The notes under the pieces are model-generated. The model was not told the DNA's origin. It ran no database searches and saw only the letters and a program-made list of their open reading frames with translations. Of a DNA stretch of 54,376 nucleotides, positions 18,815-46,449 are shown piece by piece. The position numbers and the translations under genes are program-made. Each line of letters opens with the position of its first letter. Position 1 is the first letter of the stretch. The DNA is taken from contig SVKA01000010.1 of assembly GCA_015068725.1 (NCBI GenBank), positions 1 through 54,376 on the forward strand. Reading direction: 5' to 3'. The DNA is from Oscillospiraceae bacterium. GTDB taxonomy: Bacteria; Bacillota; Clostridia; UBA1381; UMGS1253.

Positions 18815-18828
18815 AGGAATGTAAAAAA

Positions 18829-19854: not shown

Positions 19855-19884
19855 AATAAATTATATAGTAGGAGCGAAATTAAG

Positions 19885-20832: not shown

Positions 20833-20843
20833 GGTGTGAGATT

Positions 20844-22130: not shown

Positions 22131-22135
22131 TAAAA

Positions 22136-23131: not shown

Positions 23132-23146
23132 ACAGAGGGATGCACG

Positions 23147-24648: not shown

Positions 24649-24653
24649 ATAGG

Positions 24654-24694
24654 AAAAAACCGCTTTCTACCATAAATGGCAGGGAGCGGTTTTT
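24654..24694. terminator. Bidirectional terminator after the catabolic operon
   Basis: AAAAACCGCT (to 24664) pairs with AGCGGTTTTT (24685-24694), with an inner ACCATAAATGGC segment. It sits between the last operon gene and the convergent AraC regulator. Confidence 0.8.
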
Positions 24695-24706
24695 GATTTG
24701 TATAGT

Positions 24707-25516
24707 TTATTGCTTATCAAAGCATTTATAATACTCTGTGGGCGAGACGCCCTCGCTCTGTTTGAATGCGGCGCTGAAATAATGAAGGCTGTTAAAGCCT
24801 ACTGCTTCGGCAATTTGCTGCATTGATAAGGAGTTGTCAAGTATGAGTTGTTTTGATTTTTCAATGCGCATATTCATAATAAATCTTATCGGCGTTACGC
24901 CAAACAAAATTTTGAACCGTTTTACAAAATATGTTTTATTGATATGGACTCTGGCTGACAGCTCTTCAAGTGTAATGTTTTTGTTTATATTTTCCTCGAT
25001 ATAATTTTTTAAATCCAAAATCATAATATCGGTATTGTTCTTTATTTGCTCGGGCAATTCGTAAAAAACTCTGTAATCGTGCGCGTGCGGCGATGACGAT
25101 GGATTGAATTCATGTATCATCTTTATAAGCAGCAGCTTTAATGCAGAGGTTGTGCTTTCGTTACAGTATATCTTGCTTTCAATTCCTTCCTTTGCAATGG
25201 TCTGAAAAAGCATCTTCATAAACGGTATATCGCCAAGCTGAAACTGATGCGGTACATTTGATAAAAATTTCTGCGCATCAGCATCGTGAACATAAAACTT
25301 TAAATCAATCGTTTTCATTTCTCTGTTTTGAGTAATAGAATGAATCGTGCCCGGCTTTACAAAATAGGCATAATCCTGCTTTGCCTCATATACTTTGCCG
25401 TCAACTGATATTGTGCCGCCCTTTTTTGTGCAAAATATCATCTGATAAAAATCGTGCGTATGCGATGCTACTGTATTTGCAATATGGTCAATTATCCATA
25501 CTATATGTATATTCAC
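24707..25516 (-). CDS. AraC family transcriptional regulator
   Basis: The protein has 269 residues from the GTG at 25516, which has GAGGTG eight bases upstream; upstream in-frame starts lack a ribosome binding site. The cupin sensing domain starts MNIHIVWIIDHIANTVASHTHDFYQM, with the His-rich turn and KPGTIHSI. Two helix-turn-helix motifs lie at about 170-265 (LEELSARVHINKTYFVKRF and MQQIAEAVGFNSLHYFSAAF). It lies between the catabolic operon and the giant lyase genes, so it is a candidate activator of either or both. Confidence 0.9.
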   Translation of the reverse strand: MNIHIVWIIDHIANTVASHTHDFYQMIFCTKKGGTISVDGKVYEAKQDYAYFVKPGTIHSITQNREMKTIDLKFYVHDADAQKFLSNVPHQFQLGDIPFMKMLFQTIAKEGIESKIYCNESTTSALKLLLIKMIHEFNPSSSPHAHDYRVFYELPEQIKNNTDIMILDLKNYIEENINKNITLEELSARVHINKTYFVKRFKILFGVTPIRFIMNMRIEKSKQLILDNSLSMQQIAEAVGFNSLHYFSAAFKQSEGVSPTEYYKCFDKQ

Positions 25517-25620
25517 GTTATTCACCTCGTATAAAATTATATGCAAAATATCATTTGGTGTCAAGCTTGTTACAAAAATACATTCCAAATTACCATTTAT
25601 TTCAAAAACATTTCAAAAAA

Positions 25621-25884: not shown

Positions 25885-28800
25885 ATGAGAAAGATGAAGA
25901 GATTTGTAAGCATTATACTCGCGGCCACGATGTTGCTTACAAGCATGAATGCTTTGCCATTCAGCTCCGTTGCTTTCGCAGAAGAACCTGCGGGGGAGAC
26001 TACGCTTACCCTTGTGAGTACTACGGACAGACTTTCGGGTAAGGCGATGAGCGATTACAAGAAAAATAACGCGGTTGTACCATATGACGAAAGTGGTACA
26101 ACTCACGAAATGCTTACGCTTGTAAATGCTCCGATTTTGGAAAATCTTGATGCTTATGTTGGACGTACATATGGTATATTCCAGCTTGGCGAGGCTTTTA
26201 AGAAGGACAATGTGTATCTTCTTGCAAAACCCGAGGCACTTTCCAATGTCGGTTTGAACTCAGCAAGCAAGACGGTATCGGAACGTTATACTGAAACAAC
26301 AGCCGGTGAGGCTTTGTATTCGTTTGTAGCACCTGATGATGGTATTATATATACGCTTTCGAATATAGATATGTCGGCTACATATACAGACGATGCAGGT
26401 GATGTATGGACAGTACTCAATGATGGTAAAGTTCCTTATGGTCCTGATGGAGTAACATTGCTCGACAATAAAACAACTTATCAAATTAGAACTGCGGATG
26501 AAGATTTAAATCGATACGATTCATATAGCAATTTGAAAATGACTGACGCAAAGAAAGGAAATACAGAAGGCAGCACAAAAGGTGTAAAAAACTTTTCTAG
26601 TTTATATATGCCATATGCCGCCCTTATTCCTTCAACCTATACTCCTACGGCAGTATCAGATGACAGTGATAAATACAAGTATTATGCAACGATGGTTTTG
26701 TCAGGTGTTGCTGCACTCTACAACGACACCAGTGCTGGTATAGAGCAGGCGTATGCAAATGGTACGGATGGTCCTATCTTTGCATACACAGGTGCAGCAT
26801 ATGATAGCAACCCGAGCGTTTTGAGAGGCGTATACGCTTTGAGTTACTGCTACAGTCTTACATTTGAGGCGGGCGATACAGTAAATATACCATGTTATCC
26901 AACTACCACAAGCTCGGTTGGTGCGGTCAACCTCGTAAAATGGGGTAATCCTGATGCAACACTTTCAACGCTTTCATACACAGTTGATGGTGAAACCAAA
27001 ACAGTTGACGGTTTTGAAACAACTGATAAAAGTGGTACATATGACGTAACACTTGAGCCGGGCACAAAGAAAATCAACTTTAATGCTGTTCAGACTCAAA
27101 CTACAAAAGCTGATATGGCAATCACGCTTGCAGACGGCACAGAAATTGCTTCAGGTGCCGAAATTTTGCTTGCGCCGAATAAGACTAAAACAGTTACAGT
27201 TACAGTTACGGCTGAAAATGGCGATGTAAATACATACACCGTTAACTTTGTTGCGCCTGTTGAGATTACATGGATTGAGGAAAACAATACATATACATAT
27301 GATCCGGATACACCGGCAGATACGACTGATGACGTAAAAGTAACCCTCTGGGAATATGTTGAGGGCGACAAATTCTCGCCCGGTGATGCAATCTATGTAA
27401 ACCGTGGTGGTTCGCAAGACGATAATACAGATTGGCACGCTACTGCTGTTGGTAATGGCCTCAGAGGTCTTGATTATATCCGCGGTAGAGATTTAGGTAA
27501 GGCTAGAGCGACTGTTACAAGTGCTCAGATTAAGAATCAAGTTACTGCGCTTGCTAATGCGAAAACTCCTATATACAAGTTTACAGCAAGCTCATCAGGT
27601 GTAGTATATGCTGTTTCGAATGGTGCGGTAGCAAATCTAACAGATGCTTCGAAGCAGCCTGACGGTATTGCGTGGACTGCGCTTACTGCAGATGCTGATG
27701 GTCATACAAATAATGGTACCTTTGATATCGACCATACGAAACAGGGGGATGATTATACTGCATTTACGAACTATATTGCAGAGCAAGCGGAACCAGTTGC
27801 AGATACTTTAATTAACTATTTGTGCTGGATGTATCCCAAAAAAACGGCTACAGATGCTCATCCTATTTTATCAGCTGCATTTATAAAAAATGAGACATTA
27901 TGGCCCAACTCGCTTAGTGTGGCTGACAAACCCTATGGTTTTGCCACTGTAGCAGATGAATCTGCGGGCTTGAATCCTGGTCAGCCAAAGTTTGGATACG
28001 CATATAAAAAGGCATTTTCAGCAGACGAAGAGGTAACAATTCCGGCATGGTATGCGGGAATTTATTCGCCGATGTACTTTATCGAATGGAAAATTTCCGA
28101 TAATGCAGAAATCAAATCTGTAAGCTATACAGTAAATGGCGCAGCAACACCGGTTACAGCTACTCCTGACTTTACAGAAGCTTCTACAGGCGTTTATACG
28201 GCAGAGGTAGAGCTTGCTTTTGATGCAGAAAATATTTCAGGCATCACTGCAAATCCAAAAGATGCAAACGCAACAGTTGCGGCTATCGGCGACTTTGAGT
28301 TTGGTGAAACTGAGTTTTCAAAGACTGTAACAACAACTGTTACATCTGAGGACGGCAAAAATACATATACATATAATATTACATTTACACGTCCTAAGTG
28401 GGATTATACAAATACTACATTTACAGTTAGCGATAAGACATACTATCTTGCAAAGTATATCGAGGGCAATACATTTGGACCGACTGACTGTTTCGTTATG
28501 GAAAGAGGCGGTGCTGGCGAAGGTTCTACAAAATGGCAGGCAACTACTGTAGGCGAAAAGCTTATGGGCCTTGATTATATCGTGGGACGCAGAATTGATG
28601 TTTCCGGCAAACAGGAAACATCAGAGGCTTGGCTTGATCATCTTAAAAATAATGAACTGCCGATGATGAGCTTCCGCGCTGATTCGGATGGTATCTTGTA
28701 TGCTGTTTCATACAGTTCTCTTGATTCGGTTTACCTGAGTGCAAGCGAAAAGGTTGGAGGCGCTTGGGAGTCGCTTCACGGTAAAGACAATCATGTGAAC

Positions 28801-31800
28801 GGAGCAAGCATGCCTCCGGTGCCATCGACTGAGACAGGCTATACTACATGGCTTGAATATGCTAATGATGCTGCCTACGCAGATATTATGGCGACAAATG
28901 AGGAAGCAGCACCTCACAAAGTAACAGCTGCAAATGCACCATACGGATTCTATTCGTTCTATTATAAATCCGATGCAACAGAAGGCACAAATAAAATACA
29001 GGGACAGTATACCTTTACTCGTGCATACAGAAAGAAGTTTTATAAAGGCGACGTAGTTCATATCCCGAGTCCAGGTGCAGTCAAATTTACTCCTGTATAC
29101 TTGATTAAATGGACAACATTCTCAGACGATAATACAGCTGCGTTAACATTTGGTGGTAAACCAGTTGATGACAAAGCGACTGTTGAAATCGAATTTGATG
29201 AAACAGCAGAGTTTGTAGTAACGCCTAATGGTACAAATGCAACTGTAGCATATGACAAAGAGAATAATATAACAACAGAAAATCTTGCAGCAGGTGCAAG
29301 TGTAACAATTACTGCAACAGTTACAGCCGAGAATGGTACGACAAAAGATTATACAATTACAGTTACAAGAAAGTATAATCTGTCAGAGCTTATCAAGGGC
29401 TTTAGCTATAAGGCTAATAATGGTAATGAGGTAGAGACAACCTTTGCAGCGCTTGATGATAATAAAGATGGTTCATATTCAAAGGTAATTGATATATGGC
29501 TTGATGCAGGTACAACAAGTGTTGAAATTTCCGATATACTTTCGTTTAACAACGTGGTTGAATACAACCTTGACGTTACACCGGCATTGACAGAAGGTAC
29601 AACAACTGTTGATGTATCAGGCGGTAAGGGCACAGTAGAGTTCTACGCTACATATGAAGATAAGGTTAACTACTATATCGTAAGATTTATGGTAGCTGCT
29701 CCTGCGATTACTGATTTTGAAAATTTATTTACAAACGAAACAGCAAAAACAAATTATCAGTTTGTAAATAAGCCGATGGATAATCTTGATACAACACGCA
29801 CAGATGCTACACTTGCTGTAGATACTCGTTCACCGTATATTGAAGGTACTTACCAGAAAGGATATCCGTTCGCATATCTTGGAAGCGAGATTAATAATTC
29901 ATACTTGCTTGTAAGACATACACGTAATCAGGCGGGTTCATACACCTCAGCTGCAGAGAACACACCGGAAGAGGGAACGGCACCCGAGTATATGTACACG
30001 TTTACAGCTCCTGCTGATATGAAGGTTATTGTAGCAGGTTATACAAATGCTGATTCAACTTCAAAATACAGAGAAGCCAACACTGACTGGAAATATGTAG
30101 GATCCAGCGTTGGAAACGATGGTTTGGATACTACGCAGTACACATATAAAAACACAAACTTCTGGCATTTGGCAAACACAAATGCTAAGACACACACATA
30201 TGCCAGCGGCGCAATAACAGGTGCTACAGATGGAATTCCTGCTATATATACAAAGCCACAGGATTACTTAGTGTCTAAGCCGTATGCTTCTATGCACTGG
30301 GTAAATGCTGATGGTAAAATTCAGGGTGCTTATAAAACATATAAAGTAGCTAATCCGACAGAGTTTGAAGACACATGGGCTGATAACAAGTCTAATTCAT
30401 TAGATTGGCTCGATATGGTATCTGACTGGAAGACGGCTCCGACTTATGGAGAAAAACCGTTGTATGTTGAGGCCAACAACTTTATGCCGATTGGTTATCA
30501 ATCACCTGTTGGTGAAATCGCATATGTTTATACACAGAACTTTACAAGTGGTAGCACTGTAAATATTCCGTTCTGGTATATGACAGCAAAGACAGGTGGC
30601 GCTAACAGAAACCCTGTAATCTATGTACAGTATGAGTATGCATTCTCAAGTGATAACACTGCTAAATCACTTACATACAATGGAAATGCAGAAGACCTTG
30701 AAACAAAAACAATCGAAAAAACAGTTGATGCAGGCACAGATATATCGGTTGTAATTACAGCTAAGCATTATGACGCGACTGTAAAATATACAGTTGACGG
30801 CGCAGCTTCAGAGACGGGTACTATAACAAATATCGAAGACGGTGAGCACACAATCGAGGCAATTGTTGTAGCCGAGAATGGTGATGAGAACGTTTACACA
30901 TTCAATATAGAAGCACGTGCAGTGGTTGAAGACCTTCTTATCAAGAGCTTTGACTGGAAGGGCAACAACGATGCAGATGCAACAACAGTTTATATAGCTG
31001 ACAGGGATATAGAGCCTCTTGGTTCGCAGATTATAGATATTATAGTTCCTGCAGGTACAAAGAGCGTTACACTTTCAAATGTTAAGCCGATAACAGTATT
31101 TGCGGATATTCAATCTACAATCGGTACAACTGCTTTTGATACATCTACAACATACACTGTTGATGTTTCAAAGAGCAAGGGCGAGGCTGTTCTTACGGCA
31201 ACACTTGGCGATAAGACAAACAAATATATCCTTCGCTTTGCGACAGCAGGTTATAAAGCAGAGCAGATTAATTTTGCAACTGATTATGGCGCTTATTTGA
31301 CATATGATGGCACACCGCTTTCATACAAAACATCAGGCTATGGGGATGCATCTACCTATACATTTGCGTATATGGGTGAAGAGCTTTACAATACACATGT
31401 TCTTGCAAAGCCGTCAACAAGAAAGAAAAATAGTCTGTATGTTGGCAAGGTGATAGATGAAACAGCAGGAACAACAATAGGCGAGAATGCAAATTGGTTT
31501 AGCTTTAACGCACCTGAAGATGGTACTTTGTATATGGTTTTGTCCACTGAAGATGCGATGAACTCGAAATTTACAGATATGTTTACAAGAGTCAGCGGTT
31601 CAAGTAACGCATTGACAAAGCGTGTAACAAATTATAAATACGAAAAAGATACATGGTGGCATAAAACAGGCAGCGTTGCAGATCAGTATTCGTATAAAAA
31701 AGATGCTGAAGGCAAACATACATATAATAGTAATACTTATACAATAACGGCTAGTGGAACGGGTATTCAGGAAATTCTTACACATCCGTATAATTACCTT

Positions 31801-34800
31801 GTTCCTGCAACACCTGATTACGGATACTCTGAGAACTATCTGTTCTCGACATATTTGCCATTTGATACTGCTCAAAGAACGCTTTGGAAATCGTATATAG
31901 GAGAAACGAACAATCCTTCAAACAATTGGTTGAGCATGATTACAGAGTACGAAAACGATCCGCAAAATGTAGAAGCGCCAAAGTATATTGATTCGAATGA
32001 TGCTGCAGAATTCTCAGGCAAGCTTGAAACCAGACAGGTATACAAGTACGGCTTTGACGAGGGTGATACGGTAAATGTACCGATTGTCTACACAGCAGAT
32101 AAATCTAGCAACCAGAATCCGATAATTCTTGTTAAGTGGGCACCGCGTTCAAACGATACAAAGGCTACATCACTTACATACAATGATACCGAGGAAGACA
32201 TCGGTTCAACATCATTTATAAAAGATGTTGAAGCAGGCTCAAATGTATCGGTAGTTATTACACCTGCTGATTACAAAGCAAGCGTAAAATACACCAAGAA
32301 AGTCGGAGACGGTGAGGCGGAAGAATTTAATGGTGTTATAGAGGGTATTTCTGAAGGAACAACAATAATAACTGCACAGGTAGTAGCTGAAGACGGCACA
32401 CTTGGTACAGCGTATACCTTCACTATAACCGCTAAATCAAATGCTCTTATTAAAGGCTTTAGCTATAGCTACGGCGAGAGTAGTACAGGCACAGTTAACT
32501 TTATGGACTATGATAACGTTCCATTGTATTCACAGTACTTCGATGTTGATGTAGATCCTGATACAGAGGGTGTACAATGGCTTCCTGCGGGTACAAAGTC
32601 TGTTACAATTGGTGATGTAACACAAAACGATGCTTATACCGGAATAAACATCACAGTAACACCAAGCGATAATGTTGTAGATGTTTCTACCGGTAAGGGT
32701 GAGGTAACCTTCGAGGCTACATATACTGATCCTACAACAAGTAAAACAATTACAAACAAGTATATTGCACGCTTTATGGTTGATTCGTATGATTTTGCGA
32801 TTACATCGCCTATGACAAAAGGCTGGACTGTTTATAATAAGCCGTTCGATTATTTCTCGGGCACAAGCTTGTTTACAGACAGAAGCACATGGAATCTTGG
32901 ACAGGTGGGTTCGGAAATCCAGAATTCGTACTTGCTCATAAGACCTGTAAAGGACGTATACACAACATCAGCTCAGTATGACAAAGAATCTGTATATTTG
33001 GCTAATAATACAGACAAAACTGCCGCAGATGCAGCAGCTGCAGAATACTATATGTATAGCTTTACGGCTCCTGCAGATGGTGTGATTTTGCTTGCATCAA
33101 GTGCGGACACAGCGATTGCTATGGATAAGACTACCGGCACAGAGTATGTTGGTAACATTGATGAAATAGCGGCTGCAGGCTTTGTAAAGGTTATGGGTAA
33201 TCCGGTAAATGTAAATGAGTTGAATACCTATGTTACGGACTACACATATACACACAATTCCTTCTGGCATAAAGCAGGAACCGAGCTTCAGGCTTATACA
33301 AAGAGTGGCGGCGTTATAACAAAGCGTGAATCATTTGATGGTGTTACCGAGATTATAACAAAGCCGTATGACCATCAGGTTACTGCTGTTGAAGACACCG
33401 AAAACTATGGTGCAGAGAACTACTATGTATCATCATATCACATTTACGACACTAGTACTCAAAACGCTATGGTGAACTACAAAAAACAGTATTCGTATGA
33501 TTTTGAAGGAACTCCTGGTACAGCAAATGCTGCTGAAGGTAAATGGGTAACATCTATTCTTAAAAGCTACAGAGATGACCCGACAATAGCTAAGCCTGCA
33601 TATATCGAGGCGAATGAATGTGCGGCTCCCGGTCTTGGTGCAACGTACGTTACACTTGGAACTGTTTATAAAAAGGCATTTAAGGCTGGCGAGACTGTAA
33701 ACATTCCGTTCTACTATGCAAAACCCGGCTCGGGCGGTTATAATCCGGTTGTATTTGTGCAGTGGAAGGGCCTTGATACTAATGTTGGTACATTGGCTGA
33801 GGCTTCACTCAAAGCAGATATCAGCGGTTCTGTACCAAGAGAGGTAGCGATAGAAGATAATGGAAAATACGAGCTTGGTTATAATGACACCAGCTTGACT
33901 CTCCACTTTGCAACAAACAACCACAAGGATTTCATAAAATATGAGATCAATAATGAACCTGGCTCGAACGTAATTACTCCTACAGAAGAGATACCGTCAA
34001 TGAAAGTAACTGTTACAATTATGTCCGAAGCAGCTGCCGCAAATAAGGATGGTGGTGCTATAACAACATACACCTTCACAGTTTCAAAAGCAGTTGATAA
34101 GACGGATTATGGCACTGCTAAGAATATCGGCGGTACCGCAGGCGACTCTATCGCGATAGAGGCCGAGGGTGTTTTCATTGACGAAACAGATGGTGCAACA
34201 GATAGTGGAACTGAAGTAACGCTCAACGGTTTCGGTATTGATGATGTCCACGTACCGAATGATAAATATGGTAATGATGGCGCCAAAATCAATCCTGAGG
34301 CACCCGGTAATATGGGCTTTGAGCTTGCGTTTGACGAGGCGGGCGCATATACTATCTGGGTACGCTATAAGACGGATGATAATACTGATAAAGCTGCATG
34401 GGTAGATTATGGCGAGGTTGCAGCAAGAACAGCTGTTAAAGGCTATGGTAAATCAGCAGACGGCACAGCTACAACATTTGCAGCAACTAATGGTGCATAT
34501 GCATGGCAGGCAATCAAATACATGCACGGTGTACCGGAAACAACAAAGAGAATCCGTATACGTGCAAAGGATGATGGCCTTACAATCGATAAGTTTGTTA
34601 TCACAAGAAATCTTGATTTGACAACATATACGCCAAATGATGATGGCACACTTCCGGAAAGTGTAAATCTTGTAGCATCATTGGCAAACGAAAATCCCAA
34701 GGCTGAGGCGGTTGTAACACCTCCTACACCTCCGGCGAATGAGCATCCGAGAGTACTCTTTAAATCAGCTGATATACCGCAGATAAAGAAAAATCTGCTC

Positions 34801-37800: not shown

Positions 37801-38508
37801 AAAGATACAGGTGAGGAATATACTGACCTTGGAGAGCTGAAATTCGACTCGTCTGAGCTTGATGATGCTACGACTATTGTCTTTGAAGCACAGTATTCGA
37901 AAGCTACAACAAAGTATGAGGTAGTAGTTAACAACGGTTACATCTATTACGCAAATGATGTGGCGGTAGGTAACACAACGACAGAAAATGCTCAGTATGA
38001 GTACAATACGCCGATAATCGTCAGACCGACAGATGAGAGTAACTTCTCATACTGGATCAAGGATGACAAAATTGCTTCTTACAGCCCGGTATACAAGTTC
38101 CATGTAACAACTGCAGCATCAACAACACTTAAAGCGGTATATGATGGTACAGAGGGTGAAGAGGCAAAACCGAAGCCGTTTATCAGCGTTACAAACCTTG
38201 TATTGGATGAGGATAATACCAAGATCAGATTCTATACAGAGCGTTATGTACCGACAGGCTACACCTTCATTGGCGCAGGCTTGACAGTAACAAAGGATAA
38301 GCCGGGTCTTGGAAACTGCAATAACTTGTCAGGAAGCGGTATCTATCAGTGGACATCAAAGAATCCGAATGCAAGACAGTTTGTTGGAACAAAAGCAAAT
38401 ATAGGCACAGGTCATACATGGTATGCAAAAGCATGGCTCATGTATAAGAAGCCAGATAGTGATCACATCTATACAATTTATTCAACAGAGGAAAGCATCA
38501 CGTATTAA
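25885..38508 (+). CDS. Giant exported multi-module protein with heparinase II/III-like lyase domain (4207 aa)
   Basis: The signal peptide is residues 1-32 (VAFA, then EE). Six long modules follow at about 40-457, 458-837, 838-1167, 1168-1680, 1681-2185 and 2186-2740. Each has a lyase-unrelated beta-rich body and ends in a cadherin-like strand set (VTAENGDVNTYTVNF). A CBM-like sandwich lies at about 2745-2930 (IAIEAEG, FELAFDEAGAYTIWVRY). The lyase region is about 2953-3740: HPRVLFKSADIPQIKKN, helical toroid with EWQVYRDWL and GTSYGPGRLEPE, then the heparinase II/III sandwich with N3340-H-G-H3343-Y-E-x-x-H3348 and AHNTLVIE. One Ig-like, two InlB-like repeats and a unique C-terminal domain (about 4097-4207) finish the protein. 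It should cleave a uronate-containing polysaccharide outside the cell. No SLH or LPXTG was seen. Start ATG with GGAGG. Confidence 0.8.
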   Translation: MRKMKRFVSIILAATMLLTSMNALPFSSVAFAEEPAGETTLTLVSTTDRLSGKAMSDYKKNNAVVPYDESGTTHEMLTLVNAPILENLDAYVGRTYGIFQLGEAFKKDNVYLLAKPEALSNVGLNSASKTVSERYTETTAGEALYSFVAPDDGIIYTLSNIDMSATYTDDAGDVWTVLNDGKVPYGPDGVTLLDNKTTYQIRTADEDLNRYDSYSNLKMTDAKKGNTEGSTKGVKNFSSLYMPYAALIPSTYTPTAVSDDSDKYKYYATMVLSGVAALYNDTSAGIEQAYANGTDGPIFAYTGAAYDSNPSVLRGVYALSYCYSLTFEAGDTVNIPCYPTTTSSVGAVNLVKWGNPDATLSTLSYTVDGETKTVDGFETTDKSGTYDVTLEPGTKKINFNAVQTQTTKADMAITLADGTEIASGAEILLAPNKTKTVTVTVTAENGDVNTYTVNFVAPVEITWIEENNTYTYDPDTPADTTDDVKVTLWEYVEGDKFSPGDAIYVNRGGSQDDNTDWHATAVGNGLRGLDYIRGRDLGKARATVTSAQIKNQVTALANAKTPIYKFTASSSGVVYAVSNGAVANLTDASKQPDGIAWTALTADADGHTNNGTFDIDHTKQGDDYTAFTNYIAEQAEPVADTLINYLCWMYPKKTATDAHPILSAAFIKNETLWPNSLSVADKPYGFATVADESAGLNPGQPKFGYAYKKAFSADEEVTIPAWYAGIYSPMYFIEWKISDNAEIKSVSYTVNGAATPVTATPDFTEASTGVYTAEVELAFDAENISGITANPKDANATVAAIGDFEFGETEFSKTVTTTVTSEDGKNTYTYNITFTRPKWDYTNTTFTVSDKTYYLAKYIEGNTFGPTDCFVMERGGAGEGSTKWQATTVGEKLMGLDYIVGRRIDVSGKQETSEAWLDHLKNNELPMMSFRADSDGILYAVSYSSLDSVYLSASEKVGGAWESLHGKDNHVNGASMPPVPSTETGYTTWLEYANDAAYADIMATNEEAAPHKVTAANAPYGFYSFYYKSDATEGTNKIQGQYTFTRAYRKKFYKGDVVHIPSPGAVKFTPVYLIKWTTFSDDNTAALTFGGKPVDDKATVEIEFDETAEFVVTPNGTNATVAYDKENNITTENLAAGASVTITATVTAENGTTKDYTITVTRKYNLSELIKGFSYKANNGNEVETTFAALDDNKDGSYSKVIDIWLDAGTTSVEISDILSFNNVVEYNLDVTPALTEGTTTVDVSGGKGTVEFYATYEDKVNYYIVRFMVAAPAITDFENLFTNETAKTNYQFVNKPMDNLDTTRTDATLAVDTRSPYIEGTYQKGYPFAYLGSEINNSYLLVRHTRNQAGSYTSAAENTPEEGTAPEYMYTFTAPADMKVIVAGYTNADSTSKYREANTDWKYVGSSVGNDGLDTTQYTYKNTNFWHLANTNAKTHTYASGAITGATDGIPAIYTKPQDYLVSKPYASMHWVNADGKIQGAYKTYKVANPTEFEDTWADNKSNSLDWLDMVSDWKTAPTYGEKPLYVEANNFMPIGYQSPVGEIAYVYTQNFTSGSTVNIPFWYMTAKTGGANRNPVIYVQYEYAFSSDNTAKSLTYNGNAEDLETKTIEKTVDAGTDISVVITAKHYDATVKYTVDGAASETGTITNIEDGEHTIEAIVVAENGDENVYTFNIEARAVVEDLLIKSFDWKGNNDADATTVYIADRDIEPLGSQIIDIIVPAGTKSVTLSNVKPITVFADIQSTIGTTAFDTSTTYTVDVSKSKGEAVLTATLGDKTNKYILRFATAGYKAEQINFATDYGAYLTYDGTPLSYKTSGYGDASTYTFAYMGEELYNTHVLAKPSTRKKNSLYVGKVIDETAGTTIGENANWFSFNAPEDGTLYMVLSTEDAMNSKFTDMFTRVSGSSNALTKRVTNYKYEKDTWWHKTGSVADQYSYKKDAEGKHTYNSNTYTITASGTGIQEILTHPYNYLVPATPDYGYSENYLFSTYLPFDTAQRTLWKSYIGETNNPSNNWLSMITEYENDPQNVEAPKYIDSNDAAEFSGKLETRQVYKYGFDEGDTVNVPIVYTADKSSNQNPIILVKWAPRSNDTKATSLTYNDTEEDIGSTSFIKDVEAGSNVSVVITPADYKASVKYTKKVGDGEAEEFNGVIEGISEGTTIITAQVVAEDGTLGTAYTFTITAKSNALIKGFSYSYGESSTGTVNFMDYDNVPLYSQYFDVDVDPDTEGVQWLPAGTKSVTIGDVTQNDAYTGINITVTPSDNVVDVSTGKGEVTFEATYTDPTTSKTITNKYIARFMVDSYDFAITSPMTKGWTVYNKPFDYFSGTSLFTDRSTWNLGQVGSEIQNSYLLIRPVKDVYTTSAQYDKESVYLANNTDKTAADAAAAEYYMYSFTAPADGVILLASSADTAIAMDKTTGTEYVGNIDEIAAAGFVKVMGNPVNVNELNTYVTDYTYTHNSFWHKAGTELQAYTKSGGVITKRESFDGVTEIITKPYDHQVTAVEDTENYGAENYYVSSYHIYDTSTQNAMVNYKKQYSYDFEGTPGTANAAEGKWVTSILKSYRDDPTIAKPAYIEANECAAPGLGATYVTLGTVYKKAFKAGETVNIPFYYAKPGSGGYNPVVFVQWKGLDTNVGTLAEASLKADISGSVPREVAIEDNGKYELGYNDTSLTLHFATNNHKDFIKYEINNEPGSNVITPTEEIPSMKVTVTIMSEAAAANKDGGAITTYTFTVSKAVDKTDYGTAKNIGGTAGDSIAIEAEGVFIDETDGATDSGTEVTLNGFGIDDVHVPNDKYGNDGAKINPEAPGNMGFELAFDEAGAYTIWVRYKTDDNTDKAAWVDYGEVAARTAVKGYGKSADGTATTFAATNGAYAWQAIKYMHGVPETTKRIRIRAKDDGLTIDKFVITRNLDLTTYTPNDDGTLPESVNLVASLANENPKAEAVVTPPTPPANEHPRVLFKSADIPQIKKNLLAAENAALVSAYESKRNDTAFDGKLANKDPNYNAEKLEIIAAKAFDYAIFKDDADETVKARALANGNAAIELIKNYAATLQVDAQGDNCRQKGHVLKNIGQVYDWCYDLLDADDQKELMYLAQMLSAGMEIGFPPNKQGILSGHGAEWQVYRDWLTMAIACYDEYPDVYNFIAPNVYSAESVSYRNWWYQSGTQSQGTSYGPGRLEPELYAHVLIKKMGGGELFNEEAISNVPFEWIYRRRPDGQMMIDGDDNTPNTTKFGNYAYNALSRDVLLLAYTLNGDEILKQEYIKQGGLTATYGREAIQPVEALILNKPSIKTNTPKNTLPLTTYHAYPVGEMVARTGWDIESGVNSKDVIATMTLNATNPTNHGHYEAGHFMIYYKGILANDSGWYEEHSSDHHKNYMSQSVAHNTLVIETTKNPYGNQNQGIDHDFYWIPESWSEYNPDSDTYDKDNTFAEILAHEFGPDAYEPEYTYLAGDLAPSYNISTDDNKEVNEALRHMIFLPTGNEDYPAAFVVFDKIDTVDAGKKKAFLLHSQEEPTVSGNVTTIKRTERGYNGKLVNQTLLPESSNLTINTSNGGAIIDTQTGKVSRATDVEGEYIDKKADMPDNRFNNKGEKWLFMQDNPEFVQTKNTIGRVVNPDNSLEAGWGRVEIMPTTSSATDYMLNVMYVGSADETGDLQTATKIESGNFIGAQIFDRVVMFNTDKARTENTVTFAFTGTGTFKVNVAGLAAGAWTVADGAGYSTTKIVSNDGGILYFDNAPAGTYTLTKTEDTLTLKINGEEYVGATAIDQIATGNIELAHDVETINLVLESTDGAEVTYTVDDAAVAEVKDIPAPLMGGSKTVKATVDGATYTFTFTRGTMTASVTVSAHDSNTVDYKLADDATYTNGDVEFTLNNVTVGTKYTFKAKETTGYTFKYWEIDDYIVSEDIEYTYTVSKDVTINAVFAEDVVIDAKTVIFKNRNGKILEEGGTLYRNSMNTITPPTPIQNGYTFKSWLRKDTGEEYTDLGELKFDSSELDDATTIVFEAQYSKATTKYEVVVNNGYIYYANDVAVGNTTTENAQYEYNTPIIVRPTDESNFSYWIKDDKIASYSPVYKFHVTTAASTTLKAVYDGTEGEEAKPKPFISVTNLVLDEDNTKIRFYTERYVPTGYTFIGAGLTVTKDKPGLGNCNNLSGSGIYQWTSKNPNARQFVGTKANIGTGHTWYAKAWLMYKKPDSDHIYTIYSTEESITY
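25990..34090 (+). repeat. Array of six diverged extracellular modules within the giant lyase
   Basis: Shared landmarks recur in order. An opening GFSY-type strand appears in modules 4-6. Then come a YLLVRP/YLLAKP strand, a YMYSFTAPADG-type strand followed by ILLAS, an aromatic FWH pair (modules 4-6), a KPYDH/KPYDY strand, a YVSSYH strand, a YIEAN turn and a VNIPFYYAKPG..NPVVFVQW ending. Modules 1-3 are shorter and lack the GFSY strand, with a WEY-VEGDKFSPGD-type start in 2 and 3. Two more copies occur in the second giant protein. I do not recognise the module as a named domain. Confidence 0.7.
35246..35299 (+). repeat. 54-nt stretch identical to 41567-41620
   Basis: Within the lyase region this stretch (encoding YRDWLTMAIACYDEYPD) is identical at every base to 41567-41620 in the second giant gene, while flanking codons differ. 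This indicates recent duplication or gene conversion. Confidence 0.9.
38155..38508 (+). other. Conserved C-terminal domain shared by both giant proteins (copy 1)
   Basis: About 110 residues: KPFISVTNLV, FYTERYVPTGYTFIGAGLTVTK, NPNARQFVGT and WYAKAWLMYK, ending IYSTEESITY. It is strongly conserved in the second giant protein (46105-46449). Its position at the extreme C-terminus after linker-like repeats suggests a surface-attachment, sorting or glycan-binding function (inference). Confidence 0.65.
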
Positions 38509-38528
38509 TTAAAAGCTAACTGAATAAA

Positions 38529-38561
38529 AAGGACTATGCCAAACGGCATAGTTCTTTTTTT
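38529..38561 (+). terminator. Terminator after the first giant gene
   Basis: AAGGACTATGCC, AAAC loop, GGCATAGTTCTT then T run. It separates the transcripts of the two giant genes. Confidence 0.85.
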
Positions 38562-38583
38562 GTGAAAAATTGATAATATATAC

Positions 38584-38613
38584 TTGCTATTGCGTATAAA
38601 AATGTGGTATAAT
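38584..38613 (+). promoter_or_regulatory. Promoter of the second giant gene
   Basis: TTGCTA (38584-38589), 18-bp spacer, TATAAT (38608-38613), 60 bases before the start codon. Confidence 0.65.
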
Positions 38614-38673
38614 TATTATGTATAACTATATGCAAAAAAATAATTCATAAGTATATACAAGGGGAGGACTACT

Positions 38674-41600
38674 ATGAAAAAACAGAGCAAAAAAGTAATT
38701 ACACTAATGCTTGTGCTGACAATGATTGTGAGTGTTTTTGCACCATATTCTTATGCAAGCGAGGTGGATACGCAAAACGAGGTAATGCAGGTGTCAGAGC
38801 AGACGCAGGCTCCTGATGCGCTTATCACGGGCTTTAGCTATCGCTATACAAAGGCTGATGGAACTGTGTTTACAGATACGGTCAGCTTTGCAGCTTATGA
38901 CAGCGATAGTTCGCACTCGCAGTATTTTGATGTTCTGCCCTGGCTTGATGCAGGGACAAAAACTGTTACAGTTTTTGATGTAACGACTGTTGAGGGTGTT
39001 GATGTTGACCTTGCGGTTACGCCTTCGAGCTATATTGTCGATGTTTCCACAGGTAAGGGTGAAATAAAATTTGACGCTACATATAACGGTATCAGAAATT
39101 ACTATATTGCACGTTTTATGGTCAATTCTCCGTTTGATGAAGCGACAATGACAGTTGAGTCGCCCATGGAAGAGGGTAAAACATCAACATGGATTCTTGA
39201 AAATAAGCCGGTTGATTATTTTTCGGGCACAGGCCTTTGGTATGCGGACAAAACTAACTGGTATCCCGGATATGCAGGCAAAGAGTTTTATGATTCGTAT
39301 TTGTTTATAAGACCTGCAAGAGATGTGAGCAGCAAATTTGACAAGCAGTCTGTACAGACTAAATACAGAAATACTTTTATAGCAGAGTATAAAGCTGCGA
39401 ATAACGATGCCGAGCCGACAGAACAACAAATAGCGACAGCTATCGAAGAAAATGCATCATATATGTATCGCTTTACAGCACCGGCAGATGGCGCGATATT
39501 GCTCGCATCAAATGCAGATACTGCAAACGTTACATCAAGCTCTGAGTATGTGGGCAACTATGACGAAATTTCTGCCGCAGGCTTTGTCAAGGTTTCGGGA
39601 AGTCCAATGGCTGTAGCGGAATGGACAGGCAGAACACAGTATACATATGAGCAAAATTCGTTCTGGCATGCGGCGGGTTCTGCGGCTGAAAGCTACACAA
39701 AAACAGTTGGTACAAAGTATTTGTACAGCGGCACATATTATGATATCACAAAGAATGAAGCCCAAAATGGCGTTATAACTTTGATGACAAAGCCGTATGA
39801 TTATCAGCCTGTGGCTACAAAAGCCAATCAATATGCCGAAAATTATCTTATAACCTCGTATCATTCAGCTGATAGTGTAAATAAAGCGATTTGGAAAAAA
39901 TATAAGGCTGATAACAGCGATGAATTTGCCGGTGCACTTTCAAGTGAAAACAGTAACTGGTTTAAGACGCTTCTTGCAAATTACAGAAAAGACCCGACCG
40001 GCATCAAGCCTAAATATATAGAGTCGAGCGATTGTACAGTTCTTGGCATAGGAACACAAATTGTTTCACTTGGCAATGTTTACAAAAAGACATTTAAAAA
40101 GGGCGATGTTGTAACGGTGCCTTTCTATTATGCAAAGCCGGGTTCGAGCTATAATCCGGTTGTGTTTGTGCAGTGGAAGACGCTTTCAACAGATGCGAGC
40201 GCTGCATCACTTACAACGACCATTAACGGCTCTGTTCCAAAAACTGAGCAGCGCAGCCTGAGCACATATGAGTACAATGTTGACCTTGGATATAATGACA
40301 CAAATCTTGTTATTAACCTTGTTGCAAATAACCATAAAGCATTGGTATCATATACAGATGCACAGGGAAAACCTGTTTCAAATACAATCGTTCCCGAAGG
40401 CGGACAGACAATGGTTGTTTATGCTACTGTTGCCGCCGAGGATTATACAATAAAGACAACATATAAATTTAATGTTACAAAAAAATCTGATACAACAGAT
40501 TACCCCAATTTTTCTACAACAAACGGTTCTGTTATGATAGAGGCCGAGGCTGTTGTTACCGGAACAGGCGCAACCATACAGACTGCGTCGAGTGCGTCAG
40601 ACGGAAAATATGTCAAGCTTTCCGGTCCGTCGTGGCCGAGCGACCCGTTTGTATCGGATAAAAACAATAGCAGCGCTATTTTGGCCGAGGCGCCGGGTGA
40701 TATAGGCTTTGAGCTATCCTTTGACCAGGCGGGAAGATATTCAGTCTGGATGCGATATATTGCAACGGGCAGCGACTCTGTATGGATTGACTACGGTGCA
40801 ATTAAAGCAAGAACAGGTGAAAAAGGCTATTCAAATCTTGGCTTGACTGTGGATACGAGTGGCGGATATCTGTGGAAACGAGTTGCACTTATATCTGAAT
40901 CGCCAAACGCAAATGAAACAATCCGTATTCGTACGCGTGAAACGGGTGTTATAGTAGATAAATTCATTGTAACAAGATATCTGGGATATACACCGACGGG
41001 AACGGGTACGCTTCCTGACCCAGCAACGACACCGCTTGTAGCGGATATGTCAACGGATAAATATCCTGTTCCAACTGTAGTGCCAACTGTGGGAGAGCAT
41101 CCGAGAGTACTTTTCAAGGCAGAGGATATCCCGCAGATAAAGGAAAATATGAAAGCGGCCGAAAATGCTAATCTTGTAGCGGTATTTAATGAATACAAAG
41201 AGAAGACATATACCGGTGTGCTTGCAAATAAAGACCCGAACTATGATAGCAAGGGCCTTGAAACCATTGCTGCAAAAGCCTTTGACTATGCAATCAACGG
41301 AAATGAAACACATGGTCGAGAAGCAATAACGGCAATGAAAAACTATGCTGGTACATTCCAGTGCGATTCGCCCGGAGATAACTGCCGTCAGAAAGGTCAT
41401 GTGCTTAAAAATATAGGTCAGGTATATGACTGGTGTTATCCGCTTTTGAGCACTGCTGACAAAGAGGATTTGATGTATCTTGCACAGGTGATTTCTTATG
41501 GTATGGAGGTTGGTTTTCCGCCTGATGGACAGACAATACTTTGTGGTCATGGTGGCGAGTGGCAGCTTTATCGTGATTGGCTCACAATGGCGATTGCGTG

Positions 41601-44600
41601 CTATGATGAATATCCTGATGCATATAATCTTGTAGGTGGAAAGATTTTTTCGCCGGAGTCAGTTGATTACAGAAACTGGTGGAATCAGTCGGGCACACAT
41701 TCACAGGGAACATCCTACGGCCCGGGACGTTTAGAGCCTGAATTGTACGCACACGTTCTTATAAAGAATATGAGCGGTGCAGAGCTGTTCAACGAGGATG
41801 ACCTTACGCGTATTCCTTACGACTGGATATATCGTCGTCGTCCTGACGGACAATTGATGATTGATGGCGATGATAACAGTCAGAACAACGCATCTCCGGG
41901 AGCATATGTATCAGGTGCAAGAGATGCACTATTCCTTGCATATGTTATAAGCGGCGACCCGATTTTGAAGCGGGAGAGCATAAAGCAGGGAGCGCTTACA
42001 CCAAAATATGGCCGAGAGGCAATACAACCAATAGAAGCGCTTATATTAAATAATCCAAGCATTGGAACGGGCACACCGTTTGACTCGCTTCCGCTTACAA
42101 CATATCACGCATCACCTGTTGGCGAAATGATTGCGCGTACGGGTTGGGATTTGGATGCTGATTCAAATGATGTTATTGCGACAATGACGATGAATGAGTA
42201 CAATCCTATGAACCACGGTCATTATGAAGCGGGACACTTTATGATTTATTATAAGGGAATCCTTGCCAATGATTCCGGTTGGTATGAGATGCACAATTCT
42301 CCCCAGCATAAAAACTATATGGCGCAGTCGATTGCGCACAATACGCTTGTGATACAAACGCCATATAACACATGGGGTAATCAGAATCAGGGCATTGACG
42401 GACAGGGTGTTGATAATTGCAATGGCAAAAACTTTTATTGGATTCCGTCTTCGTGGGAAGCGTATCAGGCAGATGACCAAAATCGCTTTGCAGAAATTAT
42501 GGGACACGAATTCGGACCTAATCTGCAAACACCTGAGTATACATACCTTGCAGGCGATATGGCAAATTCGTATACATCAAATTATGATACAGATGTAAAC
42601 GAGGCCCTTCGCCATATGCTTTTCCTTCCGACAGGTGATGAGGATTATCCGGCAGCATTTGTAGTATTCGATAAGATATACACAAATACTGCGGGCAACA
42701 AAAAGGCGTTCCTTCTTCACTCACAGGAAGAGCCGCAGGTTAATGGAAATGTTACAACAATAAAGAGAACAGAACGCGATTATAACGGTAAGCTTGTAAA
42801 CCAGACGCTTCTTCCTGTCACGGCAAATCTTAAAATCGACAAAATTGGTGGAGCAGATATTGATGAAAATGGCAAAGTAATCCCCAATGCAGATGGTACT
42901 GTGGAAGGAAAAGACAAGCGTTTCTGGAACAGAGGTCAAAACTGGTTCTTTATGCAGGATGATCCGACGTATGTTAAGGACAAGAATACGATAGGCAGAG
43001 TTGTAAATCCGAATAATAGCCTTGAAGCAGGTTGGGGCAGAGTCGAGATTATGCCCCAAACAACGAGCAATATTGACTATATGCTAAATGTAATGTACGT
43101 TGGAAGTGCTGATGACAATTCTGCGCTGCAGCAGGCAACGCTTATCGAAACAGACGCATTTGCAGGCGCAAAAATATTTGACAGAGTGGCAATGTTTAGT
43201 AAAGCAAAGGCTCGCGTAACAGATACTGTGAGTTTTACAGTGCCGGGCAGCGAACAGGCTCTCAAGGTAAACGTTGCAGGTCTTTGTGCAGGTACATGGG
43301 ACATAACCGTAAATGGAAATAAGGTCGATACACAAATTGCATCCGAAGAAGGCGGTATAATTTACTTTACTGCTCCTGCGGGTAGTTATACAATTACACG
43401 TGTAAGCGATTATGATGATAAAGATTTCGGTGTAACGTACAGAAAGCTTATCAGTAGCTTCAGCTATGAAGCCGACAATGGCGATAAAAAGACTGAAAGC
43501 TTTGCATCATATGACACAGATGGAAATAACGCACAGGTAATTGATATTATGCTTACAGAAGGTGCAAAGAGCGTTACGGTTTCTGATATCATTGAAAATA
43601 CGGAGGTTGTAGGTGGTGTTTCGCTTCAAATGACACCTTCAAACGGAGTTGTGGACCTTTCGAGTGGCAAGGGCAGTGTAGAGATTTATGCCGCATATCC
43701 GTCGACTGTTGTAGCAACGGATATAAACAAGTACATTATAAACTTTACTGTTCCTATGACAGAGGTTGAGGTTATATCTCCTGTAGCGCAAGGTAATAAT
43801 TCGTGGAAATATGTGAATAAGCCGCTCGACTATACGCTCAACTGGTATTCTAACTTGCCGACGTGGCACGTTGGATATGTTGGTAAAAAGATTTATGATT
43901 CACATTTGTTTATCTCTGTGGGAAGAAGCGAAAAAACATTAAATAAAGCTACGGTACAGGCAAATTATAAGGCTAACTATTTGGCAGCCAATCCGGATGC
44001 AACAGAAACAGAAGCTGCACAGGCGGTGCAGAATAATGCATCATATCTGTTCAAGTTTACGGCGCCGACATCCGGAAAAATAATCCTTGCTTCAAACGTT
44101 GATACCAACAATGCGGGCGAAATGGCAAGTGCGGGATTTTCAAAGATAGCAGGAAAGCCGGAGAATGCGTCGCTGAATGTAAGCAAAATATCAGATTATA
44201 CATATACAAAGAATTCGTATTTCCATGCGAAAGGGCAATCGTTTACAGGGTATACCATGACAACCTATAAAAACGATACTACCACTGGAAAATATAAAGT
44301 TGGCAGTCATTCGTACAATCTTGCTGTAAACAATTCAGCAACTATCAAAGCCATTTTAACGCAAGCCTATGACTATATCCCATCGCCAACAGAGGCAAAT
44401 AATTATGCTGAAGATTATTATGTATCGTCATATCATCCGGCAGATAATGTTGCAAAGACTGTATGGGCAGGTTACAGAAATGATAATCCCGGTATAGTTT
44501 CGACATCACTTTCTTCTAATTCGACTAACTGGATGACTATGCTTGATGAGTATAAAGACAATCCGCTTGGCGATAAGCCGGTTTATATTGAGTCGAGTAA

Positions 44601-46449
44601 TGCCGCAAATGTTGGTTTGTGTGCAAATGACGTGGTTAACAACGTAGTATATACAAAGACGTTTACAAAAGGCGAGGATGTAATTATTCCGTTCTACTAT
44701 GCGGATACAACATCAGGCTATAACCCGATAGTATTTGTTTCGTGGGATAAGCTTTCAAACGATACGAGAGCTGAGTCGATTACTGTAAATGGAAATAGTC
44801 TTGATACAAACGTGTATGAGCACACTACCAGCGTAGCTTATGAGGAAAGCACAGTAACAGTCGAGGTTGTTGCCAAAAATGCTGCATCAACAGTATCATA
44901 TACAGATGGCGATGATAATGCGCTTGCGAGCACAACATTTGCTGCTCCTGAGGTTGATGGTGCTGCAAAGGTTGTCAAAGTAACTATCACAGCCGAGGAC
45001 GGCACAAGTGTAACGCATACAATTACCATAACAAGAGCTAAGTCAACGGATGTAAGTGTTAAGTCACTTACGATTAATGGTGAGCTCGAAGATACAGTTG
45101 AGGATAAAGCAATAGCTCTCAATTATGATGTTGAGACATTCAGCGTTGCACTTGAAGCAAATGACGAAAATGCAACTGTAACTTATACTATTGATGGCGT
45201 GAACGCTGATGCGGTCGAGAATGTTACTGCGCCCGAGATTGACGGTGCAGCAAAGATTGTAGTAGCAACCATCACAGCCCAGGATGGCCAGACAAGTGCA
45301 ACATATACCTTCACATTCACAAGAAAAGCTCGCTCTACAACGCTTAATATCAGTGCAACTGAGGATGGCGGCACAATAAAATACAAGCTTGGAGCAGATA
45401 ACCAATACACAAATGCTGGTGAAGGTTTTCAGCAAGAGACTGAACTTGGAACGGTGTATCGTTTGCAGGCGGTTGCAAATTCAGGTTATGAATTTAAGTA
45501 TTGGAAAGTTGTTTCCGACACCGGTTTGTCAACAGTTATTTCTGAGGAAGCAGAAATTGAGTACTCAGCAAATCTTAACTCGACACTCAAAGCGGTGTTC
45601 AGGAATAAAAATTCAACCGCAAAAACTGTAGTATTCAAAAACCGAAATGGTCAGATTGTTGGCAATTATATAATCAATAGCGGTGATGCTGCTATAACAA
45701 TTACTAACCCAAGTCAAACAGGTTATAATTTTGAGAACTGGCTCAGAAGTGATGGTCAGGTTGTTGATAAGTTTTATAGCTTAAACTACAACTCAACTCA
45801 GCTTGGTAATTTGAAAGATGTTATATTTACTGCGCAGTACTCAAAAGCTGAAACACCATATGCCGTAACAGTTACAAATGGTTACATTTATTCAGCAGGC
45901 GATGCTGTAGATGCTAACAAGCCTATAAACGGTGAGTATACATACAATACACCAATAGAGGTTAAAACGGAAGGTGAGGGCGTATTCTCGCACTGGATTA
46001 AAGGCGGCAAGATTGTTTCTTATAGCCCACAGTACAAATTCTATGTAACGACGGCAAATACTAGTGTAGAGGCTATATATACAGCAGAAGGTGCAACACC
46101 TGAGGAAAATACACCATTTATCAATATCAGTGATATGATAGAAGATACAGTAAACGGAAAAATCAAATTCTTTACAGAGCGTTATCTTCCTGAGGGTTAC
46201 ACATTTATTGGTGCAGGTCTGACAGTGAGCAAGGAGCAGGCTAATCTTGGTGAATGTGAAAAATTGACTGCAAGCGACACGGTATTTCAATGGATAGTTA
46301 AAAATCCAAATGCTAACCAATTTGTTGCAACAAAAACCAATGCAGGAAATTATACATGGTATGCAAAAGCTTGGCTTATATACAAGGACATAAGTGGCAG
46401 CATCCATACAATCTATTCTGACGAAGAGAACATTTCTCTTTCAAACTAA
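38674..46449 (+). CDS. Second giant exported heparinase II/III-like lyase (2591 aa), paralogue of the upstream gene
   Basis: The signal peptide ends near residue 28 (YSYA, then SE). One long module lies at about 48-605, then a CBM-like sandwich at about 619-800 (MIEAEAVV, FELSFDQAGRYSVWMRY). The lyase region lies at about 809-1575 with HPRVLFKAEDIPQI, EWQLYRDWL, GTSYGPGRLEPE, N1180-H-G-H1183-Y-E-x-x-H1188 and AHNTLVIQ. A second long module follows at about 1590-2030, then two cadherin-like sandwiches (about 2030-2220), InlB-like repeats and the shared C-terminal domain (about 2480-2591). The layout differs from the first protein in having a module on each side of the lyase rather than six before it. 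Start ATG with GGGGAGG. It is likely a polysaccharide lyase with related but possibly distinct specificity. Confidence 0.8.
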   Translation: MKKQSKKVITLMLVLTMIVSVFAPYSYASEVDTQNEVMQVSEQTQAPDALITGFSYRYTKADGTVFTDTVSFAAYDSDSSHSQYFDVLPWLDAGTKTVTVFDVTTVEGVDVDLAVTPSSYIVDVSTGKGEIKFDATYNGIRNYYIARFMVNSPFDEATMTVESPMEEGKTSTWILENKPVDYFSGTGLWYADKTNWYPGYAGKEFYDSYLFIRPARDVSSKFDKQSVQTKYRNTFIAEYKAANNDAEPTEQQIATAIEENASYMYRFTAPADGAILLASNADTANVTSSSEYVGNYDEISAAGFVKVSGSPMAVAEWTGRTQYTYEQNSFWHAAGSAAESYTKTVGTKYLYSGTYYDITKNEAQNGVITLMTKPYDYQPVATKANQYAENYLITSYHSADSVNKAIWKKYKADNSDEFAGALSSENSNWFKTLLANYRKDPTGIKPKYIESSDCTVLGIGTQIVSLGNVYKKTFKKGDVVTVPFYYAKPGSSYNPVVFVQWKTLSTDASAASLTTTINGSVPKTEQRSLSTYEYNVDLGYNDTNLVINLVANNHKALVSYTDAQGKPVSNTIVPEGGQTMVVYATVAAEDYTIKTTYKFNVTKKSDTTDYPNFSTTNGSVMIEAEAVVTGTGATIQTASSASDGKYVKLSGPSWPSDPFVSDKNNSSAILAEAPGDIGFELSFDQAGRYSVWMRYIATGSDSVWIDYGAIKARTGEKGYSNLGLTVDTSGGYLWKRVALISESPNANETIRIRTRETGVIVDKFIVTRYLGYTPTGTGTLPDPATTPLVADMSTDKYPVPTVVPTVGEHPRVLFKAEDIPQIKENMKAAENANLVAVFNEYKEKTYTGVLANKDPNYDSKGLETIAAKAFDYAINGNETHGREAITAMKNYAGTFQCDSPGDNCRQKGHVLKNIGQVYDWCYPLLSTADKEDLMYLAQVISYGMEVGFPPDGQTILCGHGGEWQLYRDWLTMAIACYDEYPDAYNLVGGKIFSPESVDYRNWWNQSGTHSQGTSYGPGRLEPELYAHVLIKNMSGAELFNEDDLTRIPYDWIYRRRPDGQLMIDGDDNSQNNASPGAYVSGARDALFLAYVISGDPILKRESIKQGALTPKYGREAIQPIEALILNNPSIGTGTPFDSLPLTTYHASPVGEMIARTGWDLDADSNDVIATMTMNEYNPMNHGHYEAGHFMIYYKGILANDSGWYEMHNSPQHKNYMAQSIAHNTLVIQTPYNTWGNQNQGIDGQGVDNCNGKNFYWIPSSWEAYQADDQNRFAEIMGHEFGPNLQTPEYTYLAGDMANSYTSNYDTDVNEALRHMLFLPTGDEDYPAAFVVFDKIYTNTAGNKKAFLLHSQEEPQVNGNVTTIKRTERDYNGKLVNQTLLPVTANLKIDKIGGADIDENGKVIPNADGTVEGKDKRFWNRGQNWFFMQDDPTYVKDKNTIGRVVNPNNSLEAGWGRVEIMPQTTSNIDYMLNVMYVGSADDNSALQQATLIETDAFAGAKIFDRVAMFSKAKARVTDTVSFTVPGSEQALKVNVAGLCAGTWDITVNGNKVDTQIASEEGGIIYFTAPAGSYTITRVSDYDDKDFGVTYRKLISSFSYEADNGDKKTESFASYDTDGNNAQVIDIMLTEGAKSVTVSDIIENTEVVGGVSLQMTPSNGVVDLSSGKGSVEIYAAYPSTVVATDINKYIINFTVPMTEVEVISPVAQGNNSWKYVNKPLDYTLNWYSNLPTWHVGYVGKKIYDSHLFISVGRSEKTLNKATVQANYKANYLAANPDATETEAAQAVQNNASYLFKFTAPTSGKIILASNVDTNNAGEMASAGFSKIAGKPENASLNVSKISDYTYTKNSYFHAKGQSFTGYTMTTYKNDTTTGKYKVGSHSYNLAVNNSATIKAILTQAYDYIPSPTEANNYAEDYYVSSYHPADNVAKTVWAGYRNDNPGIVSTSLSSNSTNWMTMLDEYKDNPLGDKPVYIESSNAANVGLCANDVVNNVVYTKTFTKGEDVIIPFYYADTTSGYNPIVFVSWDKLSNDTRAESITVNGNSLDTNVYEHTTSVAYEESTVTVEVVAKNAASTVSYTDGDDNALASTTFAAPEVDGAAKVVKVTITAEDGTSVTHTITITRAKSTDVSVKSLTINGELEDTVEDKAIALNYDVETFSVALEANDENATVTYTIDGVNADAVENVTAPEIDGAAKIVVATITAQDGQTSATYTFTFTRKARSTTLNISATEDGGTIKYKLGADNQYTNAGEGFQQETELGTVYRLQAVANSGYEFKYWKVVSDTGLSTVISEEAEIEYSANLNSTLKAVFRNKNSTAKTVVFKNRNGQIVGNYIINSGDAAITITNPSQTGYNFENWLRSDGQVVDKFYSLNYNSTQLGNLKDVIFTAQYSKAETPYAVTVTNGYIYSAGDAVDANKPINGEYTYNTPIEVKTEGEGVFSHWIKGGKIVSYSPQYKFYVTTANTSVEAIYTAEGATPEENTPFINISDMIEDTVNGKIKFFTERYLPEGYTFIGAGLTVSKEQANLGECEKLTASDTVFQWIVKNPNANQFVATKTNAGNYTWYAKAWLIYKDISGSIHTIYSDEENISLSN
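41567..41620 (+). repeat. 54-nt stretch identical to 35246-35299
   Basis: Second copy of the identical segment in the lyase domain; see the entry at 35246. Confidence 0.9.
46105..46449 (+). other. Conserved C-terminal domain shared by both giant proteins (copy 2)
   Basis: TPFINISDMI, FFTERYLPEGYTFIGAGLTV, NPNANQFVAT and WYAKAWLIYK, ending IYSDEENISLSN. It aligns end to end with the tail of the first giant protein, with only small gaps. Confidence 0.65.

Follow-up and report, generated by a model that had tools for sequence, protein, structure and literature searches.

Layout of the two giant genes

The window, which is the whole stretch of 54,376 nucleotides analyzed, is the entire contig C7 of a gut-type Clostridia genome (1.58 Mb, 45 contigs, 88.6% complete) and carries two tandem open reading frames for giant proteins with predicted export signals, protein 1 (25885..38508, +; 4207 aa, computed mass 461 kDa, pI 4.6) and protein 2 (38674..46449, +; 2591 aa, computed mass 285 kDa). 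A sequence-only reading of this DNA had reported the pair, and the boundaries it gave are exact. Neither ORF contains an internal stop, the frames being intact over 12.6 and 7.8 kb, and a Gram-positive-type signal sequence can be recognized by eye at the N-terminus of both (in protein 1, MRKMKRFVSIILAATMLLTSMNALPFSSVAFA at 25885..25980, +). No other protein of their genome comes near them in size, the third-largest being 1348 aa. A ribosome-binding site is present upstream of each gene separately, and between the genes lie a terminator-like hairpin, ACTATGCC-AAAC-GGCATAGT followed by T-runs (38533..38552, strand unassigned), and a promoter-like TTGCTA-18-TATAAT with TG preceding the second hexamer (38584..38613, +; a consensus match only), so that the two genes are probably separate transcripts.

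Protein 1 begins with three copies of a repeated core module found by profile match, copy 1 (26020..26964, +), copy 2 (27268..28104, +) and the shortest, copy 3 (28486..29124, +), each with a cadherin-like domain behind it that extends to about 27255, 28485, and 29385, respectively. Three longer repeat units follow, each made of an N-terminal beta-domain, a core, and a cadherin-like domain: unit 4 (29407..30924, +; beta-domain 29407-29724, core 29734-30639, by profile and BLAST), unit 5 (30937..32424, +; core 31297-32139), and unit 6 (32437..34104, +; core 32815-33765). Next come a CBM-like beta-sandwich (34117..34554, +), which also occurs in the genome's six other PL21 paralogs and gave 0 Pfam matches, and the predicted lyase domain (PL21, heparinase II-type; 34612..37119, +), which includes HepII_C and in which the catalytic His/Glu/Tyr/His are conserved. 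The protein ends in a cadherin-like domain with InlB-type B-repeats (37120..38130, +; Flg_new_2, PF18998, 29.3 bits against a cut-off of 23.6) and a C-terminal domain of no recognized kind (38137..38505, +). Protein 2 has one repeat unit before the lyase (38809..40509, +; N-terminal beta-domain, core 39127-40203, cadherin-like), a CBM-like beta-sandwich (40513..40956, +), the PL21 lyase domain (41074..43401, +), a second repeat unit after the lyase (43429..45327, +; N-terminal beta-domain, core 43747-44808, two cadherin-like domains), and InlB-type repeats with a C-terminal domain (45331..46446, +), this tail being homologous to that of protein 1 (44%).

Divergent from the lyase genes is a gene for an AraC-family regulator (cupin + HTH; 24707..25588, −), which is a candidate regulator of them. 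It belongs to an acid-sugar gene cluster adjoining the lyases (14326-25588), which also encodes GHL6, an AP_endonuc_2 epimerase-like protein, two Gfo/Idh/MocA dehydrogenases, an enolase-superfamily-like protein, a 2-hydroxyacid dehydrogenase, and two amidohydrolases. Elsewhere in the window, an L10 leader RNA (RF00557, 13000-13164) lies ahead of the ribosomal protein L10 gene, and an ORF for a CehA/McbA-type metallohydrolase occupies 2637-4664 (−); its real start is probably further in, since the listed start overlaps a predicted tRNA-Leu (4351-4434). Near the contig end, a serine recombinase gene (PF07508, 1227-2420) is next to a tRNA-Pro on the opposite strand, a region that is possibly the edge of a mobile element.

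The repeated core module

A core-profile search places six copies ahead of the lyase in protein 1 (residues about 64-375, 469-759, 853-1100, 1284-1609, 1805-2110, and 2311-2633), and two in protein 2 (residues 153-519 and 1692-2047), which flank the lyase on each side, and this is the arrangement that the sequence-only reading had described. When each copy was scored against a profile built from the remaining seven, it reached 34-257 bits, as against at most 10 bits for 200 shuffles of each copy, so that the repeat is far beyond chance. With only 21-52% identity to copy 1, the copies are old duplications rather than an assembly stutter. That the giant ORFs are assembly artefacts, with several genes joined or one repeat stuttered, is indeed very improbable; although they are known from one MAG contig only and the same architecture was found in no second genome among those surveyed, the divergence of the copies, the intact frames, a GC content near that of the surroundings, the ribosome-binding site of each gene with the terminator-like hairpin between them, and the orthodox lyase domains all argue against it.

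The module had been put at 330-550 aa with a reproducible order of landmarks and no assignment to a named domain. The repeat itself is real, but the unit is composite, a core of 240-370 aa being followed by a cadherin-like domain and, by BLAST, preceded by an extra N-terminal beta-domain in five of the eight copies, and in copies 1-3 some of the landmarks, YLLVRP and YVSSYH among them, are degenerate. The cadherin-like part is close to a named family, as the full-length proteins matched PF12733 at 22.4 and 23.9 bits (with three matching stretches apiece, the best at residues 1095-1163 of protein 1, after core copy 3), just under the Pfam cut-off of 24.2. The core, on the other hand, is as unassigned as had been stated, with no significant Pfam match for any of the eight copies and no match in a sequence search of the PDB. 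We do not claim it as a galactose-binding domain, for which the sole basis was one match to PF23759 at E=0.016. AlphaFold2, given the eight window copies as its alignment, modeled the core with a pLDDT of 49.8 (368-aa version) and 40.3 (239-aa version), values too low for the models to be used. Aromatic motifs, Y-F-x-A and FWH among them, are conserved across the cores. With eight diverged copies at one locus, the core is, as judged from its sequence, a domain family without a name, and a possible new binding module.

In its own genome the core occurs nowhere outside the two giants, contig C37 (2576 bases, all N) apart. A core-profile survey of 95 genomes of the order, 391 of the class, and 399 of the phylum (overlapping samples, about 800 genomes) found it absent save for weak matches to its C-terminal hairpin, and it was not found in plasmids. 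The weak matches, which centre on the C-terminal signature YxKxFxxGDxVxIP...W, were to two large surface proteins of a same-genus genome (G001) and, very weakly, to G089 and G169; the match in G089 crosses a stop and fades when rescored. Among the weak matches is one apparently SLH-type surface protein of another family, in which the compact relative of the core occurs, and a profile of the compact domain had 0 matches in the 391 class genomes, a sample with no positive control. On profile comparison with hhalign, core and compact domain aligned at 91.6% over 36 columns, whereas 11 valid column shuffles gave at most 0.2%. The core is thus not as wholly isolated as it had seemed: the C-terminal hairpin is common to it and to the compact domain of same-genus surface proteins, and homology beyond the hairpin is plausible. 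One of these proteins (L028) is the same-genus relative of a secreted SGNH/GDSL-type esterase of 956 aa encoded in the genome under study (C20:25989-28856), which has C-terminal domains as in the PL21 paralogs; L028 carries compact core relatives, and its C-terminal part resembles a polysaccharide deacetylase.

The lyase domains and their likely substrate

An unclassified polysaccharide lyase subfamily had been envisaged for the giants, and this is not borne out. The HepII C-terminal domain (PF18675) scored 57.3 bits in protein 1 and 66.7 bits in protein 2 against a cut-off of 26.1, Hepar_II_III_C was above its cut-off in both, and the lyase of protein 2 matched heparinase II in the PDB (2fuq) at E=1.5e-105 in an alignment that takes in residues 8-774 of a query of 776 aa, which amounts to full-length homology. 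The HepB model NF045571 gave 444.3 and 452.8 bits, below its curated equivalog cut-off of 600 bits. Both giant lyases can be assigned to PL21 as clear heparinase II homologues. The lyase motifs quoted in the sequence-only reading are present, and in an alignment to 2fuq the equivalents of His408, Asp425, and His451, which we take to be the zinc ligands of the heparinase II metal site, are conserved in both giants. By the same alignment, both giants and every one of the six paralogs have kept His202, Glu205, Tyr257, and His406, the catalytic residues of heparinase II being His202, Tyr257, and His406, with Glu205 as neutralizer (PMC12088678, PMC10656541), so that by their residues the lyases are predicted to be catalytically intact.

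The six further secreted PL21 paralogs, of about 1270 aa each (L009-L014), are encoded at C34:67257-79241 (three in tandem), C44:15724-19515, C33:18527-22294, and C25:3200-7000, which brings the PL21 total of this 1.58-Mb genome to eight, with the core carried solely by the two giants. The same-genus genome G001 has at least nine PL21 genes. In a tree of 28 PL21 domains, all eight lyases of the genome fell into one clade with one MAG sequence (SIG368; support 100/100), and within it the two giant lyases are sisters (support 99/96), which indicates that the giants arose within the PL21 expansion.

Heparin and heparan sulfate are the substrates for which the PL21 family is known, and to our knowledge all of its characterized enzymes act on one or the other. 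Bacteria living on sulfated glycosaminoglycans normally need sulfatases (e.g., PMC6994673). No GAG-type sulfatase was found in the genome under study, an 89% complete MAG in which the sole PF00884 match is an LtaS-like membrane protein, and none in G001, an 81% complete MAG; the reverse is seen in a member of the family (G003) with 14 sulfatases and no PL21. The sulfatases beside lyases that mark a glycosaminoglycan-utilizing bacterium were not found in these incomplete genomes, and sulfatases could be missing from both MAGs owing to their incompleteness. Genes for rhaA, rhaB, uxuA, and mannonate oxidoreductase are found no more than about 14 kb from one PL21 paralog, and the contig of another carries GH88-like, GDSL-esterase, and eda-type aldolase genes, the GH88 match being weak. 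As relatives lacking PL21 also have rhaA, at least one of them together with uxuA, the presence of the two genes does not track PL21, and we downgrade the rhamnose/glucuronate hint to one gene neighborhood. The related toroid-fold family PL33 includes lyases of both GAG and gellan (Glc-GlcA-Glc-Rha) (PMC11848413). The lack of a GAG-type sulfatase, the paralog adjoining rhamnose/glucuronate catabolism genes, and the PL33 gellan precedent together favor, with moderate confidence, a non-sulfated uronate polymer, perhaps containing rhamnose, as a more likely substrate than heparin.

It is conceivable instead that the giants are true heparin/heparan sulfate lyases, equipped with giant arms for substrate binding, that act on glycosaminoglycans from the host or the diet, since heparinase II is the nearest characterized family, the catalytic residues are all kept, and five of the G001 PL21 paralogs exceed the 600-bit HepB cut-off. 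We consider this unlikely, as the giants' own lyases (444 and 453 bits) are under that cut-off, neither PL21-rich genome has a GAG-type sulfatase, the GH88 match is weak, and rhaAB/uxuA genes adjoin a paralog. At least eight PL21 genes without sulfatases in a lineage suggest that part of PL21 has another natural substrate, which would bear on the counting of 'heparinase' genes in metagenomes. A wider proposal, that the genus expanded PL21 to at least eight secreted lyases for a non-sulfated rhamnose/glucuronate polysaccharide, a new heparinase II specificity, and that the core is at the same time a new carbohydrate-binding family so far confined to one species, is put forward tentatively, with the odds leaning against its holding in full.

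The module array and known relatives

Read from the sequence, each chain combines an intact catalytic domain with a CBM-like domain ahead of it and an InlB-repeat tail, and the eight cores of the pair are separated by cadherin-like beta-sandwiches. Our preferred reading, to which we give a probability of about 0.55, is that the giants are secreted multimodular PL21 lyases which would cleave a uronate polymer by beta-elimination, the substrate being likelier non-sulfated than heparin, with the core-cadherin array as a substrate-holding or reaching arm. Both proteins would be exported and the polymer cleaved outside the cell, where the catalytic domain would cut a (1,4)-linked uronic-acid polysaccharide, the equivalents of Tyr257 and His202 presumably acting as base and acid while Glu205 steadies the carboxylate. 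The array could form a long arm, to hold the substrate and/or to project from the cell surface, and in the six ordinary paralogs, at about 1270 aa, a short F5/8-type attachment may accompany the same chemistry.

Binding by the core is a guess from its position and repetition, and the array may conversely bind no substrate and serve as a passive stalk or adhesin across the cell wall or S-layer. The alternation with cadherin-like domains and the InlB repeats are typical of surface stalks, the compact relative of the core sits in an apparently SLH-type surface protein, and the tail of protein 1, InlB repeats included, resembles a 418-aa protein of the same genome (C42:6405-7658; 28.6% over 381 aa). 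Two SLH-type proteins adjoin the latter (C42:1-7658). The shared repeats and tail are only hints of cell attachment, and none of the known cell-surface anchors looked for (LPXTG, SLH, dockerin) was found in either giant. Against a stalk, the cores are far larger than usual spacers and have conserved aromatic motifs, and protein 2 has a core C-terminal to its lyase, so that the array does not lie simply between the enzyme and the cell; this mildly favors binding over a pure stalk. A passive role for the array is therefore a possible one, somewhat short of even odds.

Among known systems, the substrate-cleaving part of our preferred reading is closest to Pedobacter heparinus heparinase II (PDB 2fuq, 3e80), with which the giants share full-length homology of the lyase domain at 34-35% identity, the catalytic residues, and HepII_C. 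The Pedobacter protein is, however, a single enzyme of about 770 aa without such modules, whereas the lyase makes up 20-30% of the giant chains, whose genome lacks GAG sulfatases and whose scores are below the HepB equivalog cut-off. PL33 lyases have the same (alpha/alpha)-toroid plus beta-sheet class of fold as the giants' lyase, and polymers of Rha/GlcA are within reach of that class (PMC11848413); PL33 is nevertheless a different family and serves as a precedent only. For the core, the nearest comparison is the compact domain of the two G001 proteins (L028, 2394 aa; L029, 2159 aa), which has the YxKxFxxGDxVxIP...W hairpin followed by cadherin-like sequence but is only about 170-250 aa and, unlike the core, is found in proteins without a lyase. 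The six paralogs have the signal, the CBM-like domain, PL21, and the tree clade in common with the giants; they lack the core and the InlB tail, and their C-terminus is instead Cu_amine_oxidN1 + F5/8 (by domain search in one, shared by BLAST in all).

Exported giant PL21 proteins of 2371-3032 aa are also found in the Oscillospiraceae MAGs SIG486 and SIG507 (L031-L035), with lyases about 40% identical to those studied here and with Cu_amine_oxidN1, F5/8, and SH3 domains, no core having been found in them; in two of them, Gly replaces the Glu205 equivalent. Giant size is hence not unique to the two proteins of this locus. Overall, the architecture described here, as predicted from sequence, is real and unusual in joining a known enzyme family to an unnamed module; the kind of enzyme is known, and it is the module, the size, and the probable non-heparin substrate that are new, though giant PL21 proteins exist elsewhere.
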